From Pirellula sp. (GTDB taxonomy: Bacteria > Planctomycetota > Planctomycetia > Pirellulales > PNKZ01): a stretch of DNA of 64,000 bases. Shown here one piece after another: positions 12,921 to 56,835 of the stretch. Within the stretch, counting starts at the first letter, position 1, and each line of letters opens with the position of its first letter. The notes under the pieces were generated by a model. The model worked only from the letters and a program-made list of their open reading frames with translations. It was not told the origin of the DNA and did no database searches. Made by a program: the position numbers and the translations under genes. The stretch lies in assembly GCA_013822735.1 (NCBI GenBank), contig PNKZ01000003.1, positions 248,001-312,000 on the forward strand, in the 5' to 3' direction.

Positions 12921-15785
12921 TTACCGTCCGCCGAAGGCCTGGGCCAGGAGTTCACTTTGTTCCAACTTGTGGCTGCTGTTGGAGCCGGTGGCGGGGCTGC
13001 CCGACGCGTGACGGCTAATTCCGCTGAACTTGAGGCGGCCGAAGAGCTTTTCTCCGAAATTAATACGCATAAACCGCCAAGCGCCCATATTCTCAGGTTC
13101 TTCCTGAACCCAAAATACCGGCGTTCCGTCCGGATAGCGGGCCAATTCGGAGCGAAGCTGTTCATTCGGTAAGGGATAGAGTTGCTCGACGCGCAGGATG
13201 GCGACGTCTTCGCGACCCAATTCTTGCCGCTTGGCTTCGAGGTCGTAATAAATTTTGCCCGAGCAGAGCAGCACGCGGTCGACCTTTTCGCGGTTGGGAT
13301 TCGAATCGGGGAGCACGCGTTGAAACATCCCTTGCTCGAAATCTTCGAACGGCGATACGACCTTCGGATGACGGAGCAAGCTCTTGGGTGTCATGATGAT
13401 CAGCGGCTTGCGCCACTTGCGAAGCGCCTGGCGGCGGAGCAAGTGGAAGTATTGCGCCGGGGTCGTGGCGTTGCAGACTTGGATGTTGTCTTCCGCAGCT
13501 TGTTGGAGGAAGCGTTCGAGACGAGCACTCGAGTGTTCCGGGCCGGCCCCTTCGAAGCCGTGCGGCAGCAACATGACGATGCCGCTTAACCGGCGCCACT
13601 TGTCTTCGCCGCTCGTGATGAACTGATCGATGATTACTTGCGCGCCGTTGACGAAGTCGCCGAACTGCGCTTCCCACATCACCAAGCCTTGCGGCCAGTC
13701 GAGGCTGTAGCCGTATTCGAAGCCGAGCACGGCCGTTTCCGATAGCGGGCTGTTGTAGATTTCGACAGGCGCTTGCGACGGCAAAATATGATTGAGAGCC
13801 ATGTAGCGCCGACCGTTTTCGTAGTCGTGTAGCACGGCGTGGCGATGGCTGAACGTGCCGCGCTCCGAATCTTGACCGGTGAGGCGGGTCTTGTAGCCGT
13901 CGACCGCCAGCGTGGCCAATGCCAGCGCTTCGCCGGCCGACCAATCGAGCGGCTTGGCCCCCTTGGCCATTTCCTTGCGGGCGTCGAGCACTGCGCGTTG
14001 TAGTTTCGCGTGCACGTTGAAATCGGCGGGGACGGAAGCGAGCGTATCAAGGTAGGAAGCGAGCTTCTCGCGGCTGACGCCCGTGTTGAGTTCTTCCGCT
14101 TCACTTTCCAAGCCGCCGCGGTAGCCCGCCCACAGGCCGGTCCACGGAGCCAGACGCGGCTTGAACTCGGGGCTGCGGGCCACGCTCAGGTCTTTTTCCA
14201 ATTGCTCGCGACGACGCGCGGCGATGGCGTCGGCTTCCACGCGCGAGATGCCGTCCATCTTCAAGAGATATTCGAGGTAACCTTCGCGAACGTTCTTCGT
14301 GCGTTCGATCGTCTTGTACCAGAGCGGCTGCGTGAAGGTCGGTTCGTCGGCTTCGTTGTGTCCGCGGCGACGGTAGCAATACATGTCGATGACGACGTCG
14401 CGTTTGAACTCACGGCGGAAGTCGATCGCCAACTGCACGACCTGAGCCACGGCTTCCGGATCTTCGCCGTTCACGTGGAACAGCGGGCTTTGCAGCATCT
14501 TCGCCACGTCGGTGCAGTAGGCACACGAGCGCGATTCTTCCGGCGCGGTGGTGAACCCGATCTGGTTGTTGATGATGATATGGAGCGTGCCGCCGATGTT
14601 GTACGGCCCAAGCTCGCTCATATTCAGCATTTCTTGCACGACGCCTTGGCCGGCAAACGCCGCATCGCCATGGATGACGACGGCCAAGCCGCGCTCGTGT
14701 TGCGAATCGCTCAGCTTGTCTTGCTTGGCGCGGAGGCGGCCCTGGACGACCGGGCCGACGAACTCTAAGTGGCTGGGATTAAAAGCGAGCGACAGGTGAA
14801 CCTTGCGGTTCGTGCTGGTGACCCAATCGGAACTATGGCCGAGGTGGTACTTCACGTCGCCGCGACCGAGGTGCAATTCGGGATCGACGTCGGCGAACTC
14901 GCGGAAGATTTGCTGCGGACTCTTCCCCATGATGTTGGCGAGCACGTTCAACCGGCCGCGGTGCGCCATGCCGACGACGATTTCTTGAGTGCCCTGTTCC
15001 GCGGCGCGTTCGATCGCCATGTCCAACAGCGGAATTAAGCTTTCGGCCCCTTCGAGCGAAAAGCTCTTGGCGCCCAAGAAGCTCTTCTGCAGGAACTCTT
15101 CAAAGATCACGGCATCGCTGAGCTTCGTGAGAATGCGAAGTTGTTCCTTACGCGACATCTCCAGCCGGTTTTCGCTTCCTTCCATCCGGTCTTGCAACCA
15201 CTGGCGGACGCGGTAGTTGTCGATGTGCATGAATTGCACGCCGATCCGGCGGCAATACGTGTTGCGCATGCAATCGATGATCTCGCGCAACGTGCGTTTC
15301 TTCGGACCCTTGATCGTGCGGGTCGAGAGCGACATTTCGAGATGTTCGTCGGTGAAACCATAGTACTCGGCTTCCAGCTCGGGCTGCGGCGGGCGCGGCA
15401 AGCCCAGCGGATCGAGCGTCGCAACCATGTGGCCGCGCACGCGAAAGGCGCGGACCATTTGGTCGACGCGGTCTTGCAGCACCACCATGTCGACGCCGTG
15501 CTTCGCCGGAAGAGCGGCTTGGCCGTTCGTCGTCGGGGCATCGCCGCCGTCGGCCGGCGGATTGAAGACGCTATGCGCCTTGAACGACGGGCCGAGCTGC
15601 GGACGCGGCCATTCGTAGGCGGCAAACTTCGAGAAGAAGCGTTGCCAATCGCGCGACACCGAGTTCGGGTCGTTCAGGTAATCGGCGTAGAGGGCTTCGA
15701 CGAAGCCCGCGCTCATGCTGTTGAAATCGTTGTGGAAATCGTCCCCGGAGGAGTCTGTTTCCGGTTCTTCAGTGAAGAGCGCCAT
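12921..15785 (-). CDS. sucA: 2-oxoglutarate dehydrogenase E1
   Basis: 954 aa thiamine-diphosphate enzyme that decarboxylates 2-oxoglutarate in the TCA cycle. Visible signatures are the N-terminal E2-binding segment (FVEALYADYLNDPNSV and DWQRFF), LIPLLDMAIERAAEQGTQEIVVGMAHRGRLNVLAN in shortened form, the ThDP motif beginning HGDAAFAGQGVVQE and running to NNQIGFTT, and the transketolase-like pyrimidine domain with EAQFGDFVNGAQVIIDQF. The C-terminus RVEQLYPLP and VFWVQEEPENMGAW are typical. Length matches E. coli SucA. The ATG at 15785 lacks an obvious Shine-Dalgarno sequence. A terminator directly follows, so sucB may be transcribed at a different level. Confidence 0.97.
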   Translation of the reverse strand: MALFTEEPETDSSGDDFHNDFNSMSAGFVEALYADYLNDPNSVSRDWQRFFSKFAAYEWPRPQLGPSFKAHSVFNPPADGGDAPTTNGQAALPAKHGVDMVVLQDRVDQMVRAFRVRGHMVATLDPLGLPRPPQPELEAEYYGFTDEHLEMSLSTRTIKGPKKRTLREIIDCMRNTYCRRIGVQFMHIDNYRVRQWLQDRMEGSENRLEMSRKEQLRILTKLSDAVIFEEFLQKSFLGAKSFSLEGAESLIPLLDMAIERAAEQGTQEIVVGMAHRGRLNVLANIMGKSPQQIFREFADVDPELHLGRGDVKYHLGHSSDWVTSTNRKVHLSLAFNPSHLEFVGPVVQGRLRAKQDKLSDSQHERGLAVVIHGDAAFAGQGVVQEMLNMSELGPYNIGGTLHIIINNQIGFTTAPEESRSCAYCTDVAKMLQSPLFHVNGEDPEAVAQVVQLAIDFRREFKRDVVIDMYCYRRRGHNEADEPTFTQPLWYKTIERTKNVREGYLEYLLKMDGISRVEADAIAARRREQLEKDLSVARSPEFKPRLAPWTGLWAGYRGGLESEAEELNTGVSREKLASYLDTLASVPADFNVHAKLQRAVLDARKEMAKGAKPLDWSAGEALALATLAVDGYKTRLTGQDSERGTFSHRHAVLHDYENGRRYMALNHILPSQAPVEIYNSPLSETAVLGFEYGYSLDWPQGLVMWEAQFGDFVNGAQVIIDQFITSGEDKWRRLSGIVMLLPHGFEGAGPEHSSARLERFLQQAAEDNIQVCNATTPAQYFHLLRRQALRKWRKPLIIMTPKSLLRHPKVVSPFEDFEQGMFQRVLPDSNPNREKVDRVLLCSGKIYYDLEAKRQELGREDVAILRVEQLYPLPNEQLRSELARYPDGTPVFWVQEEPENMGAWRFMRINFGEKLFGRLKFSGISRHASGSPATGSNSSHKLEQSELLAQAFGGR

Positions 15786-40556: not shown

Positions 40557-43500
40557 GTGTTGCTCGTCCGCCCGCGAATACTCCCGCTGCCGCTAATCGC
40601 CGCCTTGTGCCAGGTCTGGCTCGGTGCCGGTTCGGCCTTTGCGCAAGCGCCGGGCGTCGGCACGTCGGTACCTAAGGCGGCCGCTCCGGCTACGGCGCCC
40701 GCCGCTCCCGCCGCGGCCCCGGCCCCGCGCTTGGAAGCCAAGCCCGAGGTGTTCTACCTGCGCGATAAGGCCGGCCTGCTGCAACCGGTCGTCGGCTTCA
40801 GCCTCGAAAAGTTCGAGGAGATGCTCCTCAATCGCGACGACGCCGAGGGCAAACGCAAGAAGCCCGACTTCCGTTTCGACTCCGTCTCCGCCAAAGGCGC
40901 GGCCGACGATCGCTATGCCCGACTCGACGTGAAGTTCGTCGTCTATCTCGATGCCGCCGGCTGGATTCGCGTGCCGCTCGATCTGCAGGGAAGCGTCCTC
41001 GAACAATACGCCGACTACAAAGGTCCCGGCAACTTCGCCCTGCAATACGATACCGACCGCAAAGAGTACGCCGCCTGGATTCAAGGCGCCGGCGACAAGC
41101 CGCACGAGATCACCGTCAAGACCATCACGCCGCTGGAAACCGTCGCCGGTCGCCAACGCTTACGGCTCAGCATTCCGCGCGCTTGGAGCTCGGCGCTGGA
41201 AGTCACCGTGCCGCAGTCGGGCGTCGTCGCGCAAACTTCTCCCGGCACGATCTTAGAAGCGGTCGAGCGGCAGCAGAAGCAAAGCATCATCAAAGCCCGC
41301 GGCGTCGGCGGCGCATTCCAGCTCACCTGGGGTCCGGCCGAAACGGCCACGCGCAAGTTGCAAGTGCTGCTCGAAGCGCAGGCCGACTTGCTCGCGACGG
41401 TCGACGGCCGGTCCGTCTCCTACGAAACCGAGCTCACCGTCAATAGCTTCGGCGGCGAGTTCGATCGGTTCCTCGTGCAACTGCCGCCGTCGTCGGTGCT
41501 CGTCGAAGAAGAACTCGCCGACCTCGAACTCACCAAGCGCGCCCCGGCGAACAAGAACGATAAGTCGCTCGTCTACGAAGTACGCCGCACGAGCGGCCCC
41601 GCGAAAACGCTCACCGTGAAGCTCAAGGCGCTCCGTTCGCTCGAGCAGAACAAAGGCCAGACGACGTTCGATTTCGGCGGCTTCGAAGTGCTCGACGCCG
41701 TGCGGCAATGGGGCTACCTCGGCGTCGTGCTCGAAGACGATTGGCAAGTGCAGTGGATCGATCTCAATCGCATTCGTCAGGTCGACGCCTCGCCCAACTT
41801 TCTCGCGGGCCGCCACGCCGCGTCGGTCTTCGAATATTACGGCCGGCCGTTCACGTTGCAGGCCCGCATCATGCCGCGGGAAACGCGTATCTCGGTCGAC
41901 CCGGAATACACGGTCGACGTCACGCCGACGCGCATCTATCTGCAGGCTCGGCTCCGCTATCGCGTCGGCGGCGCGAAGGTGTTTTCATTCGCCGTCGATC
42001 TTTCGGATTGGCAAGTCGACGAGGTCGGTCCGGCGCAAATCGTCAATTCCGCGGCCGTGGTGCTCGGCCAAACCGCGCCGTTGACCATCCCGCTGTTGCA
42101 ACCTTCGGCAGGCGAGTTCGAGGTGACGCTCCGCGCCCATCGCGATCTCGCCCCCGGCGCGAAAGAGGCCTCGTTCACCGTGCCGCGCCCTCGGGCCGGC
42201 GTCGTCGGTCCGGCCAACCTCGTCGTGCAAGCGGCCGACAACGTCGAGCTCTCGCCGCGCGATTCGCTCCACACCGGCCTCGTGCGCCGCAAACGGGGCG
42301 AAATGCTAGGCAGCACGCGCGGCCGAAGCGTTTGGTCGTACGCCGTCGACGCGACCGACGCCAAGTTCACGGCCGACATCCGCGCGCTGGAGCGCAGCAT
42401 TCAAGTGAAGTGCCGAACCGAACTGCAGCCGGCGCGCGACGGCGGCACGGCGCGGCAAATCTTCACGTATGCCGTGGCCCGCGAAGCGGTCGACGCGCTC
42501 AGCTTCGACGTGCCGGCCCGACTCACCGACAAAGGAAACCTCGAGATCGATTTCGGCGGTAAACCGGTGCCGTGGGTCGTCGTCGACGAAGACGTGGGAG
42601 ACGGGCGCAAGCCGTCGCGCATTCGTGTGAACCTGCCCGCCGCGCAACTCGGCACGTTTGAAGTGTCGGCCCGTTATCCGTTGCCGGAAGAACAATTCGT
42701 GCCGCAGGCGAGCATCGCGCTGAAGGTGCCGCTCTTGGCGCCGGCCGACGGCGAACTGATTGAAAACGAGCTCCGGCTATCGAGCGCTCCCGGCCTCACC
42801 GTGCAGCACGTCGATCCGGCATGGACGAAGCGCGACGCGCCGCCGACCACCGGCGCCGCCGCGCCGCAGATGGTTTACACGGCGCGCACGGCCCCGGCCG
42901 AAACGACGCTCGGCGTTCGTTGGGACGATCCGACTCCGCCGCGCGACGTCGTCGTCGAACGGCTCTGGATTCAGTCGATCGACATCGGCCCCATGCGTCA
43001 GGAACGGGCCGTGTTTCGCCTGACGACGGCCGCCACGACGCTGGAGCTGAACCTTCCGCCGGCCTCGATCGTCGTCGCCGCCGAACTCGACGGCGCTCCG
43101 TGGGCCATGCCCGACGCCGGCCCCGACGGCCTCTATGTTTTGCGCCTCGCTCCTTCGACCGGCCGACGCGATTACGTGCTCGACTTGCGCTATCGCACGC
43201 CGCGCACCGGTCCGAGCGGCAGCACGTCGCTACCGACGCCGACGCTCGGGCACCTGCGCGAGCTACGCTATGTGTATCGCCAGGTCGTGCTTCCCGGCGA
43301 CGCCTGTTTGCTGCACGCCTCGGATGAATACGTGCCGGAGTTTGCTTGGAGCTGGCGCGATTTCTTTCTGGTGCGCAAGCCCCTTTTGGCACAGGCCGAT
43401 TTAGAAACCTGGAGCGGCGCGCGGCACGATATGCCGGTGCCGGAGCGGGCCAATATCTATCTCTATTCCGGCTTCGGTTCCGCGCCGACGTTCGAACTCG

Positions 43501-43901
43501 TCACGGCCCAGCGGACCACGGTCGTGCTCTTGGCCGCGGGCGGCGTGTTGTTGTACTGCTTGGCATTGCTTTATTTCGCGCCGATGCGCCGGCCGGCTTT
43601 GGTCTTGGTCGTAGCGTGTGCGGCACTCACGCTCGGCGTGCTTTATCCCGACGTCGCACCGTTGGCTTTGCAAGCGGCGCTGTTCGGCTTGGTGCTGTCG
43701 TTCACGGCCTTGCTGCTCGATCGCAACGTGAGCCGGCGGCGCGGTCGCACCGTGCGACAAGTGCTCGATCCGTCGTCGGTCGGCGCCGTGAGCGCCACGA
43801 AGACGCGCATAACCGCCGCCTACGTTCCTCCGCCGATGTCGACGGCGACCGTCGATTCGCCGGGGGGCGGATCCGCCGCGACCGCGGGGAAAGCGTCATG
43901 A
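40557..43901 (+). CDS. Giant exported membrane-anchored protein, module 1 (unknown function)
   Basis: 1114 aa from GTG at 40557. A signal peptide (LPLPLIAALCQVWLGAGSAF, AQ cut site near residue 30) leads into an Ala/Pro linker, then about 900 residues of predicted beta-rich extracytoplasmic sequence without a recognised domain. Blocks such as DDRYARLDVKFVVYLDAAGW, RVPLDLQGSVLEQYADYKGP and TLQARIMPRETRISVDPEYT (after the repeats) suggest repeated beta-sandwich units. At about 987-1055 three hydrophobic segments (VLLAAGGVLLYCLALLYF, LVLVVACAALTLGVLY, LFGLVLSFTALLL) anchor it, followed by a basic cytoplasmic tail of about 55 residues. The stop overlaps the next gene (ATGA). The pattern fits planctomycete cell-envelope proteins. 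No catalytic motif was recognised. Confidence 0.85.
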   Translation: MLLVRPRILPLPLIAALCQVWLGAGSAFAQAPGVGTSVPKAAAPATAPAAPAAAPAPRLEAKPEVFYLRDKAGLLQPVVGFSLEKFEEMLLNRDDAEGKRKKPDFRFDSVSAKGAADDRYARLDVKFVVYLDAAGWIRVPLDLQGSVLEQYADYKGPGNFALQYDTDRKEYAAWIQGAGDKPHEITVKTITPLETVAGRQRLRLSIPRAWSSALEVTVPQSGVVAQTSPGTILEAVERQQKQSIIKARGVGGAFQLTWGPAETATRKLQVLLEAQADLLATVDGRSVSYETELTVNSFGGEFDRFLVQLPPSSVLVEEELADLELTKRAPANKNDKSLVYEVRRTSGPAKTLTVKLKALRSLEQNKGQTTFDFGGFEVLDAVRQWGYLGVVLEDDWQVQWIDLNRIRQVDASPNFLAGRHAASVFEYYGRPFTLQARIMPRETRISVDPEYTVDVTPTRIYLQARLRYRVGGAKVFSFAVDLSDWQVDEVGPAQIVNSAAVVLGQTAPLTIPLLQPSAGEFEVTLRAHRDLAPGAKEASFTVPRPRAGVVGPANLVVQAADNVELSPRDSLHTGLVRRKRGEMLGSTRGRSVWSYAVDATDAKFTADIRALERSIQVKCRTELQPARDGGTARQIFTYAVAREAVDALSFDVPARLTDKGNLEIDFGGKPVPWVVVDEDVGDGRKPSRIRVNLPAAQLGTFEVSARYPLPEEQFVPQASIALKVPLLAPADGELIENELRLSSAPGLTVQHVDPAWTKRDAPPTTGAAAPQMVYTARTAPAETTLGVRWDDPTPPRDVVVERLWIQSIDIGPMRQERAVFRLTTAATTLELNLPPASIVVAAELDGAPWAMPDAGPDGLYVLRLAPSTGRRDYVLDLRYRTPRTGPSGSTSLPTPTLGHLRELRYVYRQVVLPGDACLLHASDEYVPEFAWSWRDFFLVRKPLLAQADLETWSGARHDMPVPERANIYLYSGFGSAPTFELVTAQRTTVVLLAAGGVLLYCLALLYFAPMRRPALVLVVACAALTLGVLYPDVAPLALQAALFGLVLSFTALLLDRNVSRRRGRTVRQVLDPSSVGAVSATKTRITAAYVPPPMSTATVDSPGGGSAATAGKAS

Positions 43902-46900
43902 GCCTTCCTCGTCGGTCGGAGCCTCGTCCCCGCGCCGGCCTCCTCGCGCTGATGGTCGCCCTGCTCGGGGTCGCGGCCGCGGGGAGCGTCGTTGTGAACA
44001 CCGTGGTTCTTGCGCAAGCTCCGGCCGAAGTCGGCGGCCAACCGTTGCCGCGCTTTCGCCGCGTGTTTGCTCCCGCCGACCAGTTCCAAGCGTGGCCGTT
44101 TCAGAACGAGCGCTACCTGCCGCTGCCGGGCCCGGAATTCGAAGACTTAGTCCGGCGCGCGGAAGCGGCGACTTCCGATGCCGGTCTTCCGGCCGGTTCC
44201 GAAGTTCTTTCCTGTCGCTACACCGCGAAGTTCGACGACGTCGATCTCACGGGCGAAGGGGAGATCGATCTCCGTCGCCGCAACGGCGAAACGCGATTGG
44301 TCCGTCTGGCCCCGTTCGGCTTGGCCGCGTTTAATGCGCGCTGGAGCGAAGGAGACGTTCCGGCGCGCTTGGGAGTTTCGGCCGGCGGCGACGCCTTGCT
44401 GCTGGTCGATCGCGACGACACGCTGCGCTTCGCTTGGAAGCAGCGCGTGGTGCGCGAATCGGCCGACGTGGTTTCGTTGTTCGTCGACTTCCCGCACTGC
44501 CCCGTGGTATCGCTGACGTTGGAACTGCCCGAGGCGTACGACGTCCAACGGGGCGAGTATGCCTTAGAGCGGAGCGAGAAGCCGAAAGACGGCCGCTACA
44601 CTTGGACGCTGCTCGCGGCCGGCGGACGATTGCGCGTGCGGTTCGCGAAGCGCGAAGCGGAGCTCGATTTGCGTCGCAACGGCGTGCGCATCGACTCCGC
44701 CTACGACTTCACGGAACGGGGCATCGAACTCACGGCGCAACTCCGCATCGACGCGCTCCATGCGCCGCTGGAAACGATCACGCTGGAACTCGATCCCGGC
44801 CTGACGCTGGTCGACGCCCGATTGCCGGATCGCCGCATCACGTGGTTTGCGTTACCGGAAGCTCCCGCCCCTCCCGCACCGGCGCCGGCAGCTCCTAAGC
44901 CGACGGCGACGAAGCCCGCCGACTCTAAAGCAGGGCCTGCCAAACCGACGGCCACGTCGACGAAGCCCGCCCCGAAGGCGACGGGAACGAAGCCCGCCGC
45001 CGCTCCTTCGGCGAAGCCTACAGCAACGCCGCCGGCCGTGGTTGCGAAGCCTGCCGTCGCGCCGCCGGCTCGTCCGCAACGCTATGTCCTAGAGTTCGAG
45101 CGCCCGTTGGTCGGCGCCGGGCGCACGTTGTTCCTCAAGGCGGTAGCGCCGCTCGTGGTCGGGCGTCGGCATCGCGTGCCGACGTTGCGCGCTCCGGATC
45201 TGTTTTGGCAACAAGCGACGCTGACGCTTTCCGTCCCTGCACCGCTCGAGATCGTGCGGCTCGATCCGCGCGAGAGCGTGTTTACGAATCCCGTGCCGCT
45301 GGCGGGCAATCGCCCGGGCGAAGCGGTCGAGGTACAGTGCTTCGCTCCTTCGGCAAGCGCCGACTTGTTGCTTGCCCGCCGCAATCGGCCGGTCGATGCG
45401 TCGACCGTCACGCTTTGGAGCGTGCGCGAAGAAGAAGCCGCGGCGACGTTCCACGGCGAGTTCCGCATCGAGGTCGGCCATCGTTTCATGCTCGAGGCCG
45501 ATCTCCCGTCGCGCTGGATCATCGATTCCGTCGTTTCGAGCCCCGCCACGGCCCTGGCCGATTGGTCGCTTTCCGACGCCGCCGATCGACGACGAACGCT
45601 CTCGCTCCGGTTGGCGCAGCCGCTGGCGCCCGATCGCCCGTTGCGGATCACGATCGTCGGACGTTTGAAACATCACAACGTCGGCGACCGACTCACGCGC
45701 GAGCAAATGCGGTTCGTGGAGTTTCGCAACACCGCCGATCCGCGACCGCTGTACGGACTGCGCGCCGAAGAAGGCTTGCGGCTGCAGCTGCGCGACGGCG
45801 ACGATTCGAAAGCAGTCGTCTCCGCGGAGCGCCTCGATCCGGTGCGGCGCGAATTGCTGGGCAGCTTCATCGCCGACTATTTGCTTTCCGGCGCCGATTT
45901 CTGGGAAGTCGACGTTCGGCGCGGGCTGGCCGACTTCGCGGCCGTCGTGGCCGTCGATGCGCGCTTGAAGGTACCGACCGAGACCATCGCGCCTCTCGCG
46001 CCCACGCCGCCCGTTTGGCAGTTGCAAGAAGAGTACCGCATTCATTTGCGGAACGCGGTCGGTATGCCGCTCGAGCAAGTGCGCGTGCGCATCGCCCCCG
46101 CGAAGACGACGCCGCTCCAGTGGACGCTCGGCGGCGGGCGCGGCGGACAGATTTCCGCCGTGCGACTCGCGGCATCCGATGCGGCCGCCGCCGGCCTGCC
46201 GAGCGTCGCGGCGGAAGAAATCTGGGAGATCACGTTTCGCAAACCGCCGACGGGGGAAGTGGAATTGGAAGGGCGACGGGAGTCGCCGCTGACGACGCAA
46301 ACGCCCGTCTCGCTGGCATCGGTCGTCGATGCCGCGCCGCAGTCGGGCGAAGTGCGCGTGACGGCCGACGCCGCCATGCCGGTACGCTTGATCAATCGCA
46401 CGCTCACTCCGCTGCCGGCCGCCGACGATGCGGAAGAGTCGGGCCTGCGCGGACTGTACCGTTACACGCCGGGGCTCGCTTCGACTTCGGAACTCGCGGC
46501 GCTCGAAGTCGCACAAGTGCGCGGGAATGAGAATGCGTCGCCCGCGGCGCTAGTGTGGCTCTTGCGCTACGATTCGAAATACGACGCCGCCCGACGACTC
46601 GTCCATCGTGCGACGCTCTACATGCAGGCTTTGCAAAACGAGCGTTGCCGACTCGTGGTCGACGAGCCGGCGCAACTCGCGGCCGTGCGCGTCAACGGCG
46701 TATCGCTCGCCGGCATTCATGGTCGCGAGGCGGAAATTAAGCTCGATTCGGCCGGCGCGCTCATGCGCGTCGAGGTCGACTTTACGACGACCGACGAAGC
46801 TGCAGGTCGACTCCGCATGCTGGAACTTCCCGTCGTACGGCTCGAAGTTCCCGTACTGTTAACCGTGCGCGAGGTGGCGGTGCCGACGTCGTTCGACGTG

Positions 46901-49900
46901 CCGGCCGACGCCGGGCTGCGGTCGTTGCGGACCAATGAAGGGGGACTGAGTTTGCGTCGGTTGTTCGGCCCGCTCGTTTCGCCGGATGCGACGGCGACGC
47001 TGACGCTTCCCTCGGGCCTCGGCGGCGGCGTCGCAACGACCGGTTTGCGACTGCCGCGCGCCACGCGCGACGTTGCGGAAGCGGTACGACTCCATTCGGC
47101 GCTCGGCGCCGTCTTACGCGAGCATAGTAGCCGCGGGCAAGATAATGCCGCGACCGACTCCCAACTGCCGCTGACGTGGGCCGATGCTTGGCAGGCGGCG
47201 CTCTTGCGGCAACCGTCCGGCGTCGCGACGTCGTTACGTTTTGATGCGCAGAACTTACGCACGGCGGGAGTCGCGGCGGAATCGATCGTCGCGACGGGAA
47301 TCCGTCCGGCGGACGACGATAAGGCGATCGGCGAGCAAACGTTGGAAGCCGCGGGCTTGGTGTTGGCCGTCGACGGTCGTGGTTTTGTGCTGACGACCTG
47401 CGGCGCGGCCTACACCGACGACGACGATACGCTCCGTGTTTTCACTCCGCAGGCCCTGCACGCGAGTCGCGGCGAAGCGGAGACTCCGTGTGAATTGAGT
47501 GATTGGAAGTCGGCCCCGGCAGGCGCCTGGAGCCTGTTGCCGACGAGCCCGAGCCTGTTTGCCGGCGAACCGCTCGGGCAAGACTACGTTGTGCCCTTGG
47601 AAGGAGATACCTGGGGCGTGTGGATCATTCGGCGCGAGATTCCGCCGCTCTTGGCGCTGGCGTTCGTGGCCGCCGGGTTCGTGCTGGCCCGCATTCTGTT
47701 CACGGCCCGGCGCGGGATGCTACCGCTGGTCGCGTGCGCGTTCGCCGTCATGGCGGCCGTGTTGCCCGACTGGATCGGGGCGGGCGCCGCATCGCTCCTG
47801 CTCGGCCTCGCGGCGGGAGTCGCCGTGTGCGTGATTTTGCCGCCGCGCGGGCGCATCCGTTCGCAACATTTGGGCGTCGGTACGGTGAACGAATCGGAGC
47901 GGCGCAGCGCTTCGAGGCCTTCGCGCGCGGCCCCGTCGCCGACCGCACCTTTGACGATCTGGTTGGCCGCGGCTTGTTGGGCGTCGACTGCATGCGCACA
48001 GTCGCCGGCCGCGACCCCGCCCGCGGACGCGGGAGCGTCGCAGCCCGCGGCGATGGTGTTCATTCCCGTCGATGAGAAGGGGAAGCCGAGCGGCGATCGG
48101 TACCAGGTGCCGGAGCGGCTGTTGCGCAGCTTGCAGGGGCGCGTGGGGCCGGACGCCGTCGCCGACTCGCCGGTGCTAATTCAGAGTGCACGCTACACGG
48201 CGCAGGTCGGCCGCGATGTGGAGCAAGCGCGTTACGTCGTCACGGAACTCCATGCGACGTTCGAATTGTTTGCCATGCAAGGGCCGGCTCGTGCGACGGT
48301 GCCGCTGGGGGTGGGACCTTGGTTGCCGGCCGGCGGCTCGGGCACGCTGACGGCGATGATCGACGGGCGGATGGTCGACGTCGAAACGACCCCCGGCGGG
48401 CAATCGATCTTGCTCGAGGTTGCCGAGGCGGGCGCCGCGCGACTGGAACTGACGTTGCGTCCCGCGGTGGTTGCCGCGGCCGGAGCTGCGACGTCGTTTT
48501 CGCTGGCGGTGCCGCGCGTCACCGATGCGGAGTTGCGGGTCGTCGCTCCTCCGGAGCTTGCCGACCTGACGGTCGCCGGCGCCGCCGAGGCGTTGCGTTG
48601 GTCGAAAGATCGGCATGAAGCGCAGGTGCGGCTGGCCGTGACCGATAAGCTTGCGCTTTCGTGGTCGGCGCAGTCGAACGTCGAGGCGCAGGCTTATTCC
48701 GTCGATCGATTGACATGGTTGCGCGTGCGTCCGGGGTCGATGGTGCTCGACCTCCGGCTCGTCGTACGCCCGCCGGCCGCCGGCGTGAAAGAAATCTTGC
48801 TGACGGCCGATCCGCGCCTGCAGTGGTTGCCGAAGCGCGGCGAAGATTCGTTGATTGCGGACGTCGAGCAAACCCCGGTGACGAACGACCAAGCGGTGGT
48901 CGGACAGCGCATTCGCTTGGAACTTTCGCGACCGATCGTGAAGGAAGAGACCGTGGAGGTGAGCTTCTTGCTCACGGGCGGGGCGGGCGTGGGGAACATG
49001 CGGCGACCGGAACTTCGCTTGGCCGAGGAAACGCCCGGCCTGCGACTCTTCGCGTACAGCGTCGACCCGCTGCTCGAGTCGAGCGTGCAACTCGGCACGG
49101 GAGTGAAGCCGCTGGCGGTGCCGGAATTTTTGAAGGCCTGGGGGCGTGATACGTTGCTGCCGCAAGCGGCCTACACGCTGACGGCGACGACCAACACTTG
49201 GACGCTTTCGGCGCGTCCGAAGCGCGCCGTGTTCGACGCGCGGCAGACCGAGGTCGTGGTGTGCGGCGCGCGGAAGTTGGATCTAGTGCTGGAAGCGGAA
49301 GTCGACGTGGCCGAGGGGTTGCTCTATCACCATGAGCTGCAAACGCCGCCGGAGATGACGATCGATTCGGTCGACGTGGCCGAGGTCGGCGACGATTCCG
49401 GCGGACGCGTAGGTCGCTGGTCGCGCGACGATCAGGGGAAAGTCATGGTGTTTCTCCGTACGCCGATCGGCGAGAAACATCGCCTGACTTTGCGCGGCAA
49501 GCTCCCGCTGGCGGGCTCGGCGACGGATAAGAAGCCGAAGGCCGGCAATGGCGACGACGGGGCTGCGCCCTTGGCGATCGGCGGAGAGACGGCTTTGCCG
49601 CAGTTGCGGCTGCTCGGGCCGCGCACGGACGAACGCACGGTGCGCATCGCACGCTTGCCCGAGGTGCTGGCGAGTATCGAGGGAGCGACGCACCTGAAGA
49701 GCGTGGGCGTCGACACGGCCGATTCCGGAGTTGCCGGGGCGCGCGTGATCGACGTGCTGCAAGTGTCGGGCTCGTCGCCGGCGGCGAAGCTCAAGGTGTC
49801 GCCGAATCCGCAAGCCGCCTCGGCGCAGCTGGTTTCCACGTATTTGCCGGAGGGGAAGGCGTGGCAATATGAATTGCGGATCGGCGTCGATGTGAAGAGC

Positions 49901-51370
49901 GGGCTGCTTGACGAACTGACGCTCGAACTGCCGCCGCAAATTGCGACGCCGCTGGCCTTGTCGCCTTCTATGCCGTATGAGGTGGTGGCGGGCTCCGGCA
50001 ATGCTCAACGCCGGCTCGTGCTCCGGCCGCGGCAGGCGATCGCGGGGAAGTTCGAAGTATTACTACAGGCCGGACTCACCGAAGCCCGGCGCGACGAACC
50101 TTTGCCGGTCGCGCGAATGTTGCGCGTGCCGTCGGTCGTGCATTTGCTCCGCTTGCCGCGCCATAGCGGGCTCACGCCGATTCGTTGGGAGACCTCGCAA
50201 CTGGCGCCCACGCGCTCGGCGAAGGTCGCGAGCAAGGGGGTCGCCGAAGAAGAATGGGACGCATATCGCGTCGTCGGCCCTGACCCGCAGGCCGTGTTGC
50301 GTTCGGCGCGCGGCGGCGGCCGGCCGTATGTGCGTTTGGCCGAACATCGCTTGTTGCCCGGCAGCGACGGCGCGCTGGTCGGCTTGAGTTCGTTCTTGAT
50401 GGAGCCTGCGTCGACGAGCGCGGGCGTATTGCTCCTGCCGGCCGATGCGGAGTTGTTGCTCGTCACGACGGCCGGAGCGGTCGTGCATGCCGAGTCTGCC
50501 GCGGCGGGCGTGTGGACGGTGCCGTTCGCTTCCGAGCAGATGCCGCACGACATCGACGTGCTCTATCGCTTGCCGTCGCGCGGGTATGCTTCGGGGGAAA
50601 CGCATACCGAAACGTTCGCGGTGCCGCGCTGGGAAGGGGTGCGCGCCGAACGTTCGTTGGCCGCGGTGTTGTCGCAGCGGAGCGGCCCGCGACATCTGCC
50701 GACCGACGGCAACCTCGTCGGTACTTTGCGCTCGCGACAGATTCGCCTGACGGCCCTCGACGCCGTGCTCGCCGATCTGGCGGGCGACGGTTCGCGCGCC
50801 GCGGCCGAGTGGGCGGCGCCGCTCGTGCAAAGCCGCTTGGAAACGGTGCGCGACTTGCGCATCGACACGGCCGCGCTCGGCGACACGGCGGAAGGGCGCG
50901 CGGCCCGAGAGTTCTTGGCGGCGTCCGACCTGCAATCGGCCGCCGCGAAACTTCCCGCGGCGACGTTGGCGCCGCCGGCCGGCGTCGACCTCACGACGCT
51001 CTGGCGCAGCGGCCCGGCCGACGCTTGCGACGCCGTCTATCTGGCCGCCGACGAAGAACTTGCCGAACTCCGGCTCCGTGTTGCGCCGCGCGAGATCCAT
51101 CGCGATTGGCGCGTCTACTACCTGCCCGCCCTCTGCGTGTCGGCGGCGCTCGCTTGTTGGGCCTTCGCGCGCGTCGACGGGTTCCTCCGCTGGCCGCAAT
51201 TGGCCGCGGTCGTCGTCGGCACCGCGTGGCTGCTGTTCCTACGGCCCACGATCGTCGGCTGGATCATCTTGGCCGTGGTCGTCGGTTGTCGACTTCATCC
51301 GAGCCTGCGACACGTGCGCGAGCGGCTCTTGAACGTGAGTCCGAAGCTCAGCGCCCTGCGAAAATCATAG
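43898..51370 (+). CDS. Giant exported protein of 2490 aa containing two modules, each with its own signal sequence
   Basis: ATG at 43898 overlaps the upstream stop. Module A (1-1329) begins with signal peptide GLLALMVALLGVAAAGSVVV, contains a Pro/Ala/Lys/Thr-rich linker at about 323-395, a long beta-rich region, and ends in three hydrophobic segments (LLALAFVAAGFVLARILF, LVACAFAVMAAVL, ASLLLGLAAGVAVCVIL). A polar linker with a GTG codon at 47885 (residue 1330) then leads into a second signal-peptide-like segment, APLTIWLAAACWASTACAQS, and module B (to 2490), again beta-rich, with terminal segments YYLPALCVSAALACWAF, LAAVVVGTAWLLFL and TIVGWIILAVVVGC. No stop separates the modules. It could be one polytopic protein, or GTG 47885 could start a third gene. 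Function is unknown. Confidence 0.85.
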   Translation: MSLPRRSEPRPRAGLLALMVALLGVAAAGSVVVNTVVLAQAPAEVGGQPLPRFRRVFAPADQFQAWPFQNERYLPLPGPEFEDLVRRAEAATSDAGLPAGSEVLSCRYTAKFDDVDLTGEGEIDLRRRNGETRLVRLAPFGLAAFNARWSEGDVPARLGVSAGGDALLLVDRDDTLRFAWKQRVVRESADVVSLFVDFPHCPVVSLTLELPEAYDVQRGEYALERSEKPKDGRYTWTLLAAGGRLRVRFAKREAELDLRRNGVRIDSAYDFTERGIELTAQLRIDALHAPLETITLELDPGLTLVDARLPDRRITWFALPEAPAPPAPAPAAPKPTATKPADSKAGPAKPTATSTKPAPKATGTKPAAAPSAKPTATPPAVVAKPAVAPPARPQRYVLEFERPLVGAGRTLFLKAVAPLVVGRRHRVPTLRAPDLFWQQATLTLSVPAPLEIVRLDPRESVFTNPVPLAGNRPGEAVEVQCFAPSASADLLLARRNRPVDASTVTLWSVREEEAAATFHGEFRIEVGHRFMLEADLPSRWIIDSVVSSPATALADWSLSDAADRRRTLSLRLAQPLAPDRPLRITIVGRLKHHNVGDRLTREQMRFVEFRNTADPRPLYGLRAEEGLRLQLRDGDDSKAVVSAERLDPVRRELLGSFIADYLLSGADFWEVDVRRGLADFAAVVAVDARLKVPTETIAPLAPTPPVWQLQEEYRIHLRNAVGMPLEQVRVRIAPAKTTPLQWTLGGGRGGQISAVRLAASDAAAAGLPSVAAEEIWEITFRKPPTGEVELEGRRESPLTTQTPVSLASVVDAAPQSGEVRVTADAAMPVRLINRTLTPLPAADDAEESGLRGLYRYTPGLASTSELAALEVAQVRGNENASPAALVWLLRYDSKYDAARRLVHRATLYMQALQNERCRLVVDEPAQLAAVRVNGVSLAGIHGREAEIKLDSAGALMRVEVDFTTTDEAAGRLRMLELPVVRLEVPVLLTVREVAVPTSFDVPADAGLRSLRTNEGGLSLRRLFGPLVSPDATATLTLPSGLGGGVATTGLRLPRATRDVAEAVRLHSALGAVLREHSSRGQDNAATDSQLPLTWADAWQAALLRQPSGVATSLRFDAQNLRTAGVAAESIVATGIRPADDDKAIGEQTLEAAGLVLAVDGRGFVLTTCGAAYTDDDDTLRVFTPQALHASRGEAETPCELSDWKSAPAGAWSLLPTSPSLFAGEPLGQDYVVPLEGDTWGVWIIRREIPPLLALAFVAAGFVLARILFTARRGMLPLVACAFAVMAAVLPDWIGAGAASLLLGLAAGVAVCVILPPRGRIRSQHLGVGTVNESERRSASRPSRAAPSPTAPLTIWLAAACWASTACAQSPAATPPADAGASQPAAMVFIPVDEKGKPSGDRYQVPERLLRSLQGRVGPDAVADSPVLIQSARYTAQVGRDVEQARYVVTELHATFELFAMQGPARATVPLGVGPWLPAGGSGTLTAMIDGRMVDVETTPGGQSILLEVAEAGAARLELTLRPAVVAAAGAATSFSLAVPRVTDAELRVVAPPELADLTVAGAAEALRWSKDRHEAQVRLAVTDKLALSWSAQSNVEAQAYSVDRLTWLRVRPGSMVLDLRLVVRPPAAGVKEILLTADPRLQWLPKRGEDSLIADVEQTPVTNDQAVVGQRIRLELSRPIVKEETVEVSFLLTGGAGVGNMRRPELRLAEETPGLRLFAYSVDPLLESSVQLGTGVKPLAVPEFLKAWGRDTLLPQAAYTLTATTNTWTLSARPKRAVFDARQTEVVVCGARKLDLVLEAEVDVAEGLLYHHELQTPPEMTIDSVDVAEVGDDSGGRVGRWSRDDQGKVMVFLRTPIGEKHRLTLRGKLPLAGSATDKKPKAGNGDDGAAPLAIGGETALPQLRLLGPRTDERTVRIARLPEVLASIEGATHLKSVGVDTADSGVAGARVIDVLQVSGSSPAAKLKVSPNPQAASAQLVSTYLPEGKAWQYELRIGVDVKSGLLDELTLELPPQIATPLALSPSMPYEVVAGSGNAQRRLVLRPRQAIAGKFEVLLQAGLTEARRDEPLPVARMLRVPSVVHLLRLPRHSGLTPIRWETSQLAPTRSAKVASKGVAEEEWDAYRVVGPDPQAVLRSARGGGRPYVRLAEHRLLPGSDGALVGLSSFLMEPASTSAGVLLLPADAELLLVTTAGAVVHAESAAAGVWTVPFASEQMPHDIDVLYRLPSRGYASGETHTETFAVPRWEGVRAERSLAAVLSQRSGPRHLPTDGNLVGTLRSRQIRLTALDAVLADLAGDGSRAAAEWAAPLVQSRLETVRDLRIDTAALGDTAEGRAAREFLAASDLQSAAAKLPAATLAPPAGVDLTTLWRSGPADACDAVYLAADEELAELRLRVAPREIHRDWRVYYLPALCVSAALACWAFARVDGFLRWPQLAAVVVGTAWLLFLRPTIVGWIILAVVVGCRLHPSLRHVRERLLNVSPKLSALRKS

Positions 51371-55353: not shown

Positions 55354-56835
55354 TTACTTCGCGGGCCGAGCGAAGGAAATCAGGGGAACGTCGTGCGCGA
55401 GGACCAACTTCTTAATCGTGTTGAACGACTCGATCAGAGCTTTGGTTTTCCTTCGCCGACTGTGAACGATCGATAAGGTGTCGGCCGTCATTCTCACGGC
55501 CTCCGCGGAACCGGCGATTTCGAGATCGCAATACGTGCAGTCTCGGTCGTACGTAACCTTCAAATGGGGATTCTTGGCGGCTTCCACGGCGTCGATCAGA
55601 TCTGCTACTTCAACCTCGGCGGGGAGAGAAAACTCCAGCGTGTCGAAGACGTTGTCGAATACTTCGCCAAAGGCGTCAGAGAGGATCTGGTCGGGCTGCT
55701 TGATGGCGTCGACCGTTCGTGTCCAAATCACCTCCGAGAGGCTGTTAGGGTTCAGCGTCACGCTTACGGAATAGTTGAAGTACGGAGTAACGATCGTGCC
55801 TGAGCCGTCCAAAGGCTCGGAAGCCGAGATTTCGCGCCGCGTGAAGTGAAACGAATTCTTGAGCGACTGGTAAACCGAGTCGAGGTCGTCTTTGATCTCC
55901 GTGACGGAAAGACCCGCAATAAAACTCTGCGCGGTGTCGTTGGCGCGATCGGGAAGACGGTACGAAGAGTTCCAGCCGGACAAGCTTTTGACGCGCGAGG
56001 ATTCATTCGCGGTAAAAGAAACCTTGTTAACCAATTCATTTCCCGGGGCGTCCGCTTTCTTCCTCGCGGCAAGAATGGGTCGCAAATCCGCAACCAGGAA
56101 ATCGCCGCTTGTTCCGCCGGACATCCAAGGCGTTTGTCGGATCGGCTTGGTGTGCTCAATGCTCAGCGATCGGGCCACCTCGGATCCTAAATAGTTCTGT
56201 AGCGACGATGAGAGCAGCAGGTTTTTTCGGAGCGCCGAGGGAGCATTTCCTTTGAGCGCTTCGATGAGGTGGTATGTCCAGACGCCGTGCTTGTGGTGGT
56301 TTGTCGGGTACGAGGTTTCATCCGACTGGCAGGCGGCGAAGCAAACGCAGTGCTCGGTGTGTTGGAGAAACCCCTCCAGCTCGCTCGCTTGTAAGTTGTC
56401 GTAGATTCCTCGCATACCGGGCGTCGCTCGCATGCCGCTCGCGCCGCAGTCGAGAAACAGAGCGATGTGTTTGCACTCGGAATCTTGCAATTCCTTGAAG
56501 AGCGCCGCGAGCGCAATGCTTGTCCCCTCCCAGTCGAATTCTTGGGTGTCATGGCAGGTGAGGAAATTCCGTCCTGCTTTCGAGAATGCATGCCCGGCAT
56601 AGTAGAAGTAGCAAACGTCGTCGCTGCGCAAGCGCGCGATGGCGCGCCTGACCTTGGACTCGACGGCCCCCTTCGTTGCGTCGCCGTCTATCAGTAGGGT
56701 CTGATCGGCTTTGTCGAAACCATGTAAAGCCAACGCCTCGGATAGAGCTTCGGCGTCGTTCCTCGCGTACCGAACCTGTTCGATTCCGGGGCTCGAATAG
56801 TTCTCGACGGCGATGAGGATGGCAATTTTAGTCAC
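55354..56835 (-). CDS. Caspase-like (peptidase C14 fold) protein with altered nucleophile motif
   Basis: 493 aa. The first 260 residues match bacterial caspase-like (orthocaspase/metacaspase) proteins: MTKIAILIAVENYSSPGIEQ, LRSDDVCYFYYAGHAFSKAG (catalytic His82), and LFLDCGASG at 127-134. The usual D-x-C-H-S-G becomes D-C-G-A-S-G, so the expected nucleophile position (131) is Gly and the next-door residue 130 is Cys. The p10-like segment is visible in FAACQSDETSYP and GVWTYHLIEALKG. Residues about 270-493 are an unrecognised C-terminal region. The gene is less GC-rich than its neighbours, which may mean recent acquisition. No gasdermin, NLR or CRISPR gene is adjacent. Protease activity is doubtful; a pseudo-enzyme or sensor role is possible. 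Confidence 0.85.
   Translation of the reverse strand: MTKIAILIAVENYSSPGIEQVRYARNDAEALSEALALHGFDKADQTLLIDGDATKGAVESKVRRAIARLRSDDVCYFYYAGHAFSKAGRNFLTCHDTQEFDWEGTSIALAALFKELQDSECKHIALFLDCGASGMRATPGMRGIYDNLQASELEGFLQHTEHCVCFAACQSDETSYPTNHHKHGVWTYHLIEALKGNAPSALRKNLLLSSSLQNYLGSEVARSLSIEHTKPIRQTPWMSGGTSGDFLVADLRPILAARKKADAPGNELVNKVSFTANESSRVKSLSGWNSSYRLPDRANDTAQSFIAGLSVTEIKDDLDSVYQSLKNSFHFTRREISASEPLDGSGTIVTPYFNYSVSVTLNPNSLSEVIWTRTVDAIKQPDQILSDAFGEVFDNVFDTLEFSLPAEVEVADLIDAVEAAKNPHLKVTYDRDCTYCDLEIAGSAEAVRMTADTLSIVHSRRRKTKALIESFNTIKKLVLAHDVPLISFARPAK

Follow-up and report, generated by a model that had tools for sequence, protein, structure and literature searches.

The subject of this report is a single gene at positions 43898..51370 (+) of a 64,000-nucleotide stretch of the Pirellula sp. 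genome (contig PNKZ01000003.1, positions 248,001 to 312,000; hereafter, the window). This gene likely encodes a two-protein membrane polyprotein that would be inserted through Sec and cut by signal peptidase after residue A1367, yielding two proteins that we denote A and B. An earlier note on this DNA had described two signal-peptide modules in one 2490-residue frame with no stop codon between them, and this description holds: the frame is open throughout, from the ATG at 43898, which overlaps the stop of the upstream gene (ATGA), to the stop at 51368-51370, and the N-terminal signal, the three hydrophobic segments, the in-frame GTG at 47885 and the second signal-like segment are all present. 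The architecture comprises a continuous frame that is the same in homologues, paralogy of three modules, a recurrent grammar of the internal signal, a lipobox version of that signal, and one homologue in which the two halves are split.

All parts of the fused gene lie on the forward strand. Module A opens with a signal peptide (43898..44014, residues 1-39; predicted cut VLA|QAP, read by eye from the sequence), followed by an ectodomain (44015..47647, residues 40-1250) and three transmembrane (TM) segments that close the module (47648..47839; residues 1251-1269, 1275-1293 and 1296-1314), for which hydropathy and the loop charges of the homologues agree. A basic loop and then the segment LTIWLAAACWASTACAQS follow these hydrophobic segments. 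The positive loop (47840..47950), which we take to be cytosolic and to serve as the n-region of the internal signal peptide, contains GTG 47885 (residue 1330), 22 codons ahead of the hydrophobic core. The h- and c-regions of the internal signal (47951..47998, residues 1352-1367) end at a predicted signal peptidase I cut, ACA|QSP, the whole signal-like stretch being LTIWLAAACWASTACA|QS (residues 1352-1369). The predicted mature protein B (47999..51367, residues 1368-2490) would consist of a tandem beta ectodomain and C-terminal helices, with two TM segments at 51113..51286 (residues 2406-2424 and 2445-2463). Module A also contains a linker rich in Ala, Pro, Lys and Thr at 44867-45073 (approximately residues 324-392) that is barely common to the homologues.

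A third module, module 0, is encoded directly upstream (40557..43901, +; 1114 residues), with a signal peptide (predicted cut AFA|QAP), a beta-rich ectodomain and C-terminal hydrophobic helices. Using profiles built from homologues within the same taxonomic order (26 rows each for modules A and B, 24 for module 0), pairwise hhalign comparisons gave E values of 2e-38 (A against B), 3e-36 and 2e-40 across 816-953 columns; the module B profile also matches the upstream gene weakly (E 2.5e-11). In the window, an A|Q-[AS]-P pattern at the predicted cut is common to all three modules. By these comparisons the window is judged to hold three related modules, each with a predicted signal peptide, an ectodomain and C-terminal helices, two of them in one gene. 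Searching the whole protein against its own genome (6.88 Mb, 99% complete) yielded one match, this locus.

We then traced the fusion in other genomes. A module B query matched 32 of 40 relatives, and a profile recovered six of the remaining eight (38/40 in total); among these 40, G005, from the same family, and G029 had no module B match by either query or profile. In the 31 loci taken from Pirellulales relatives, the junction lies in one frame in 30, the other (L048) being cut off, and a module 0 frame is directly upstream in 25, the remaining six lying near contig starts. Across a sample of the phylum, the B profile matched 74 of 246 genomes. Of these, 70 lie outside Pirellulales, and 56 of them supplied 60 loci (L075 among them), 44 of which, in 43 genomes, have a fused frame across the junction. 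The resulting set consists of 75 junctions from 74 genomes, 31 from Pirellulales and 44 from elsewhere in the phylum. Left out of it were L048, L097 (split), L118 (nonsense codon), L111, L148 and L152 (other arrangement) and 11 contig-cut or ambiguous loci, and three more Pirellulales matches (frames of 2158-2429 residues) were also kept out; five frames were removed from the automatic list of helix clusters because they were antisense or not the fused gene, and five junctions were placed by hand. The junction arrangement, found again in 75 homologous junctions, is thus beyond chance, and the fusion is not peculiar to the Pirellula genome of the window: it is the usual state among loci readable on both sides of the junction. 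One genome, G274, carries two loci of the family, L100 and L101, of which L101 groups with the Pirellulales rows. An extra module-0-like gene follows the fused gene at L108 (13164-16721). For module A, no plasmid match was found.

One line of evidence for cleavage comes from the residues at the end of the internal hydrophobic core. Signals and helices were called with our own scripts, which combine regular expressions with a simple 19-residue hydropathy rule, and cleavage sites were scored with a stricter motif, [AVGST]xA[QEDG] no more than 20 residues from the end of the core, and a looser one, [AVGSTLI]x[AGS][QED]. The stricter motif was present at 49 of the 75 internal segments and 16 of 28 module A N-terminal signals, but at 44 of 381 other helices; the corresponding counts for the looser motif were 61/75, 21/28 and 64/381, and the expectation from shuffled residues for the internal set was 0.31 (stricter) and 0.44 (looser). 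The three helices immediately upstream (TM1, TM2 and TM3) were compared at the 54 of 75 junctions where exactly three were called: these carry the stricter motif in 3, 1 and 5 of 54 cases (Fisher p < 1e-10 versus the internal segments) and the looser one in 4, 7 and 5. The loop between TM1 and TM2 is positively charged in 50 of 54 junctions, that between TM2 and TM3 in 7 and that between TM3 and the signal in 52, which by the positive-inside rule would place the n-region of the internal signal in the cytosol. In the window and in most other junctions, n-, h- and c-regions and a signal peptidase site (ACA|Q in the window) follow a loop that is taken to be cytosolic.

In four junctions (L125, L134, L139 and L142), the internal site is instead a lipobox, the core ending in ATGC, GGC or PGC, whereas the N-terminal signals of the same four proteins look like signal peptidase I substrates. 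On the tree of module B (FastTree, 73 rows, four junctions with too short a B excluded; unrooted and with many long branches), these four form, together with L114, which has an AxA site, a single clade of five, within which the type of signal changed at least twice. This alternation speaks for a cleaved signal because a plain TM helix has no reason to alternate between the signals of two peptidases. A fifth lipobox match, in L057, was treated as chance, its Cys lying inside the core with a good AMAQ site later.

The strongest competing explanation, albeit an unlikely one, is an uncleaved fusion, in which the internal segment would be a fourth TM helix, that is, a signal anchor, and the product one polytopic chain with two large ectodomains. 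The continuous frame and the topology are equally compatible with this arrangement, and some homologous internal cores are hydrophobic enough to pass the 19-residue helix rule; the core in the window is too weak to do so. Also weighing against it are the signal-peptidase-type c-region, present at 49 of 75 internal segments versus 1-5 of 54 for each of TM1-TM3, and the lipobox versions in one clade. The suggestion of the earlier note that two exported proteins came to share one frame is borne out by the paralogy of A and B and by their occurrence as separate genes in L097; the polytopic end product that it envisaged is probably wrong, since most of the internal segments retain a signal-peptidase-type motif, or in one clade a lipobox, and so look cleaved.

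Several points weigh against the polyprotein reading. The stricter motif is missing in 26 of the 75 junctions, as an uncleaved fusion would allow, and the looser one in 14; 21 junctions do not have exactly three upstream helices by the hydropathy rule; and strict AxA alone, found in 38 of 75, is no commoner than its shuffled expectation of 0.49. We rejected AxA as a sole criterion since it performs no better than residue shuffles, so that the case is carried by the motif read with the residue after it, its scarcity in the control helices, the lipobox versions and the single split locus. Kinship among the sequences means that the p-values overstate their independence, and because the set was drawn from long open frames, finding the junction within a single frame is in part a consequence of that choice. 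The counter-examples to the fusion that we found are the split in L097, the nonsense codon in L118 and the other arrangements at L111, L148 and L152. Finally, the topology, the cleavage, the enzyme and the one-to-one output are all what we infer from the sequence.

Aligning homologues, as the earlier note had proposed, located the two halves as separate genes in a single genome, G100, fusion being the usual state among the other readable loci. At its locus (L097), 47 bases lie between the A gene and the B gene, and B has its own N-terminal signal peptide, which ends in AVRAEES, ahead of the FYVPYDP stretch that marks the start of module B elsewhere; this is the only genome in which we found a separate second half with its own signal peptide. 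On the B tree, the lone split row sits among fused rows, such that one change suffices, and we take the split to be a fission of a fused gene, as far as an unrooted tree with long branches allows. L118 was dropped as a second split genome because its in-frame TAG (within 13641-14000) interrupts the helix cluster itself, the frame being fused in all other respects; we count this codon as a nonsense codon or an error rather than a gene boundary, although it may also be an incipient split. At L111, L148 and L152, the gene after an A-like one has module 0 as its best-scoring match, and no B-like module was seen downstream of the A-like gene.

The other explanation offered by the earlier note, a third gene translated from the internal GTG, fared worse. 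We regard it as highly improbable that B is made separately from a start at or near GTG 47885, whether alone or besides the fusion. There is indeed an in-frame GTG ahead of the core in the window, L033 has a GTG three codons off the aligned place, and 28 of 75 junctions have an ATG among the 30 codons that precede the core, versus 28% of the controls (binomial p 0.07), a small excess that is unexplained and to which we give little weight. However, at the aligned column a start codon is present in only one of 31 rows, the window itself, and within three codons of it in 10 of 31, L033 included. Any ATG, GTG or TTG occurs in these 30 codons in 66 of 75 junctions versus 82% of control stretches (p 0.23), leaving nine junctions with no start-like codon, and a start with a Shine-Dalgarno match of at least 4 occurs in 15 of 75 versus 22% (p 0.68), the latter being a weak test here given that such a match precedes just 8 of 28 N-terminal starts. 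Moreover, translational restart would not require a shared frame. An internal start at GTG 47885 was rejected on the aligned column, the codon counts and the Shine-Dalgarno counts. An assembly error or a stop lost in this genome only, falsely joining two genes, has next to no probability: although A and B are separate in G100 and the stop in L118 illustrates how one codon is enough to break the frame in two, a fusion unique to this genome is refuted by the homologues, single-contig genomes such as G274 and G108 among them.

Under the polyprotein reading, biogenesis would proceed in order along the chain. The N-terminal signal peptide would start Sec-dependent export of ectodomain A, and the three helices would act as stop-transfer segments that anchor A and return the chain to the cytosol. 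The charged loop and the internal signal peptide would then re-engage the Sec translocon so that ectodomain B is exported, and signal peptidase I would cut after A1367 (ACA|QSP). The spent signal would remain on A and form its C-terminal helix; B, now separate, would be anchored by its own two C-terminal helices, leaving A and B equimolar and side by side. More tentatively, the three modules may form a complex at the envelope surface built of non-catalytic beta domains resembling M1-aminopeptidase N-terminal domains and ribophorin I.

This last suggestion derives from predicted structures. AlphaFold2 models (five rows) of B (mean predicted local distance difference test (pLDDT) 69.5, predicted template modelling score (pTM) 0.41) and module 0 (75.5 and 0.38, respectively) are nearly all beta, with a helical end in B. 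Their best single-domain matches are M1-aminopeptidase N-terminal domains: residues 403-596 of the B model match ERAP1 (9gke; Z 12.7, root-mean-square deviation (rmsd) 4.2, 169 aligned) and residues 46-218 match LTA4H (5ni6; Z 12.0, rmsd 3.4, 153 aligned), and residues 43-202 of the module 0 model match LTA4H as well (5ni4; Z 12.3, rmsd 3.0, 152 aligned). Oligosaccharyltransferase chains (entries 6ezn and 8pn9), which we take to be OST1/ribophorin I, top both structure lists with Z 13.7 and 14.2, but with an rmsd above 20 Å, so that they fit only domain by domain. Ribophorin I itself contains M1-aminopeptidase-N-terminal-like domains in tandem within a membrane-anchored protein; the likeness to B and module 0 lies in single domains (Z of about 12), whereas whole-chain superposition is poor (rmsd of about 20 Å) and there is no Pfam model match. 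The top Foldseek rows for B are integrins with a TM-score of about 0.1, which we read as reflecting chained beta sandwiches. In the predicted structures, then, both B and module 0 include beta domains resembling those of ribophorin I and the N-terminal domain of M1 aminopeptidases, and module A presumably shares this fold, given its paralogy with both.

Family searches added no convincing assignment. The ribophorin Pfam model had no match in the window modules (at E 1), in the 26 module B rows (E 0.1) or in the 24 module 0 rows (E 0.01), the Pfam scan of module A covering the window copy only. Peptidase_M1 of Pfam did not match the three window modules, the catalytic motif not having been searched separately. 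The remaining Pfam hits were sporadic and unconvincing: in the window, DUF5693 for module 0 (E 0.037) and none for A or B; among the 26 module B rows, DUF7251 in one (E 0.026); among the 24 module 0 rows, TgpA_N (E 5e-5), fvmJAB_N and DUF6056 in one each. In NCBIfam, module A hit a DotG model at an unconvincing E 0.031, and module A rows had no match at 0.01; a sequence search of the PDB returned nothing below E 0.03.

Gene neighborhoods were read from stretches many of which are cut, which makes all neighbor counts lower bounds. In the window, an inositol-monophosphatase-like gene is directly upstream, and with tblastn its homologues bring the total to 18 of 92 sources: the window, L101 and 16 of the other 31 loci from Pirellulales. 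Outside Pirellulales, tblastn identified a YfbK-type von Willebrand A (VWA) protein in 12 of 92 sources and an extracytoplasmic function (ECF) sigma factor in 7, with L114 added by Pfam as an eighth sigma factor locus. Pfam confirmed the YfbK assignment for eight of these proteins, and two of the eight also carry an anti-sigma zinc finger. YfbK-type proteins, often with an ECF sigma factor, stand beside the family at L116, L121, L125, L131, L134, L137, L142 and L153, and at L116 the sigma factor gene comes first, then YfbK, module 0 and the fused A-B gene. For the lineages that have them, these neighbors hint at envelope sensing or assembly of a surface complex. Elsewhere in the window, a caspase (Peptidase C14) domain (E 2e-14) is found in the product of 55354-56835 (-).

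To our knowledge, cleavage of a polyprotein at internal signal peptides, a textbook matter for viruses, is rare in bacteria. The nearest known mechanism is that of FbcH of Bradyrhizobium japonicum, reportedly a cytochrome b/cytochrome c1 polyprotein that signal peptidase cleaves at an internal signal sequence. Both FbcH and A-B are encoded by one bacterial open reading frame, in which a first protein that spans the membrane is followed by a loop in the cytosol, an internal signal and an exported second protein anchored at its C-terminus; in A-B, the single frame, the internal signal and a split homologue are found, and the cleavage is predicted. The proteins themselves are unrelated: the first part of FbcH is a multi-pass cytochrome, whereas A and B are both large ectodomains, paralogous to each other and to module 0 upstream, with a lipoprotein-type internal signal in one clade. 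Viral structural polyproteins, in which host signal peptidase cleaves at internal signals, resemble A-B in the succession of a stop-transfer helix and an internal signal; A-B differs from them in being a cellular gene, with a bacterial signal peptidase as its presumed enzyme and one junction. By title, our literature search found neither a planctomycete polyprotein of this kind, or any account of this family, nor the FbcH cleavage, but most subscription journals lay outside its coverage, so that this is no evidence of absence.

Taken together, we lean somewhat towards the view that this family is an ancient, phylum-wide polyprotein under lasting selection for internal cleavage, in which one clade would have switched between signal peptidases I and II to produce a TM protein and a lipoprotein, and which, with the third paralogue (joined elsewhere by an ECF sigma factor plus an anti-sigma-like VWA/YfbK protein), may form a stoichiometric envelope complex of non-catalytic ribophorin-like ectodomains. 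A very large planctomycete protein family for which Pfam and NCBIfam offer no convincing match thereby gains an architecture and a lead on its fold. The combination of a widespread family, a natural split homologue and a natural switch of peptidase makes it testable why bacteria would keep two surface proteins on one chain.

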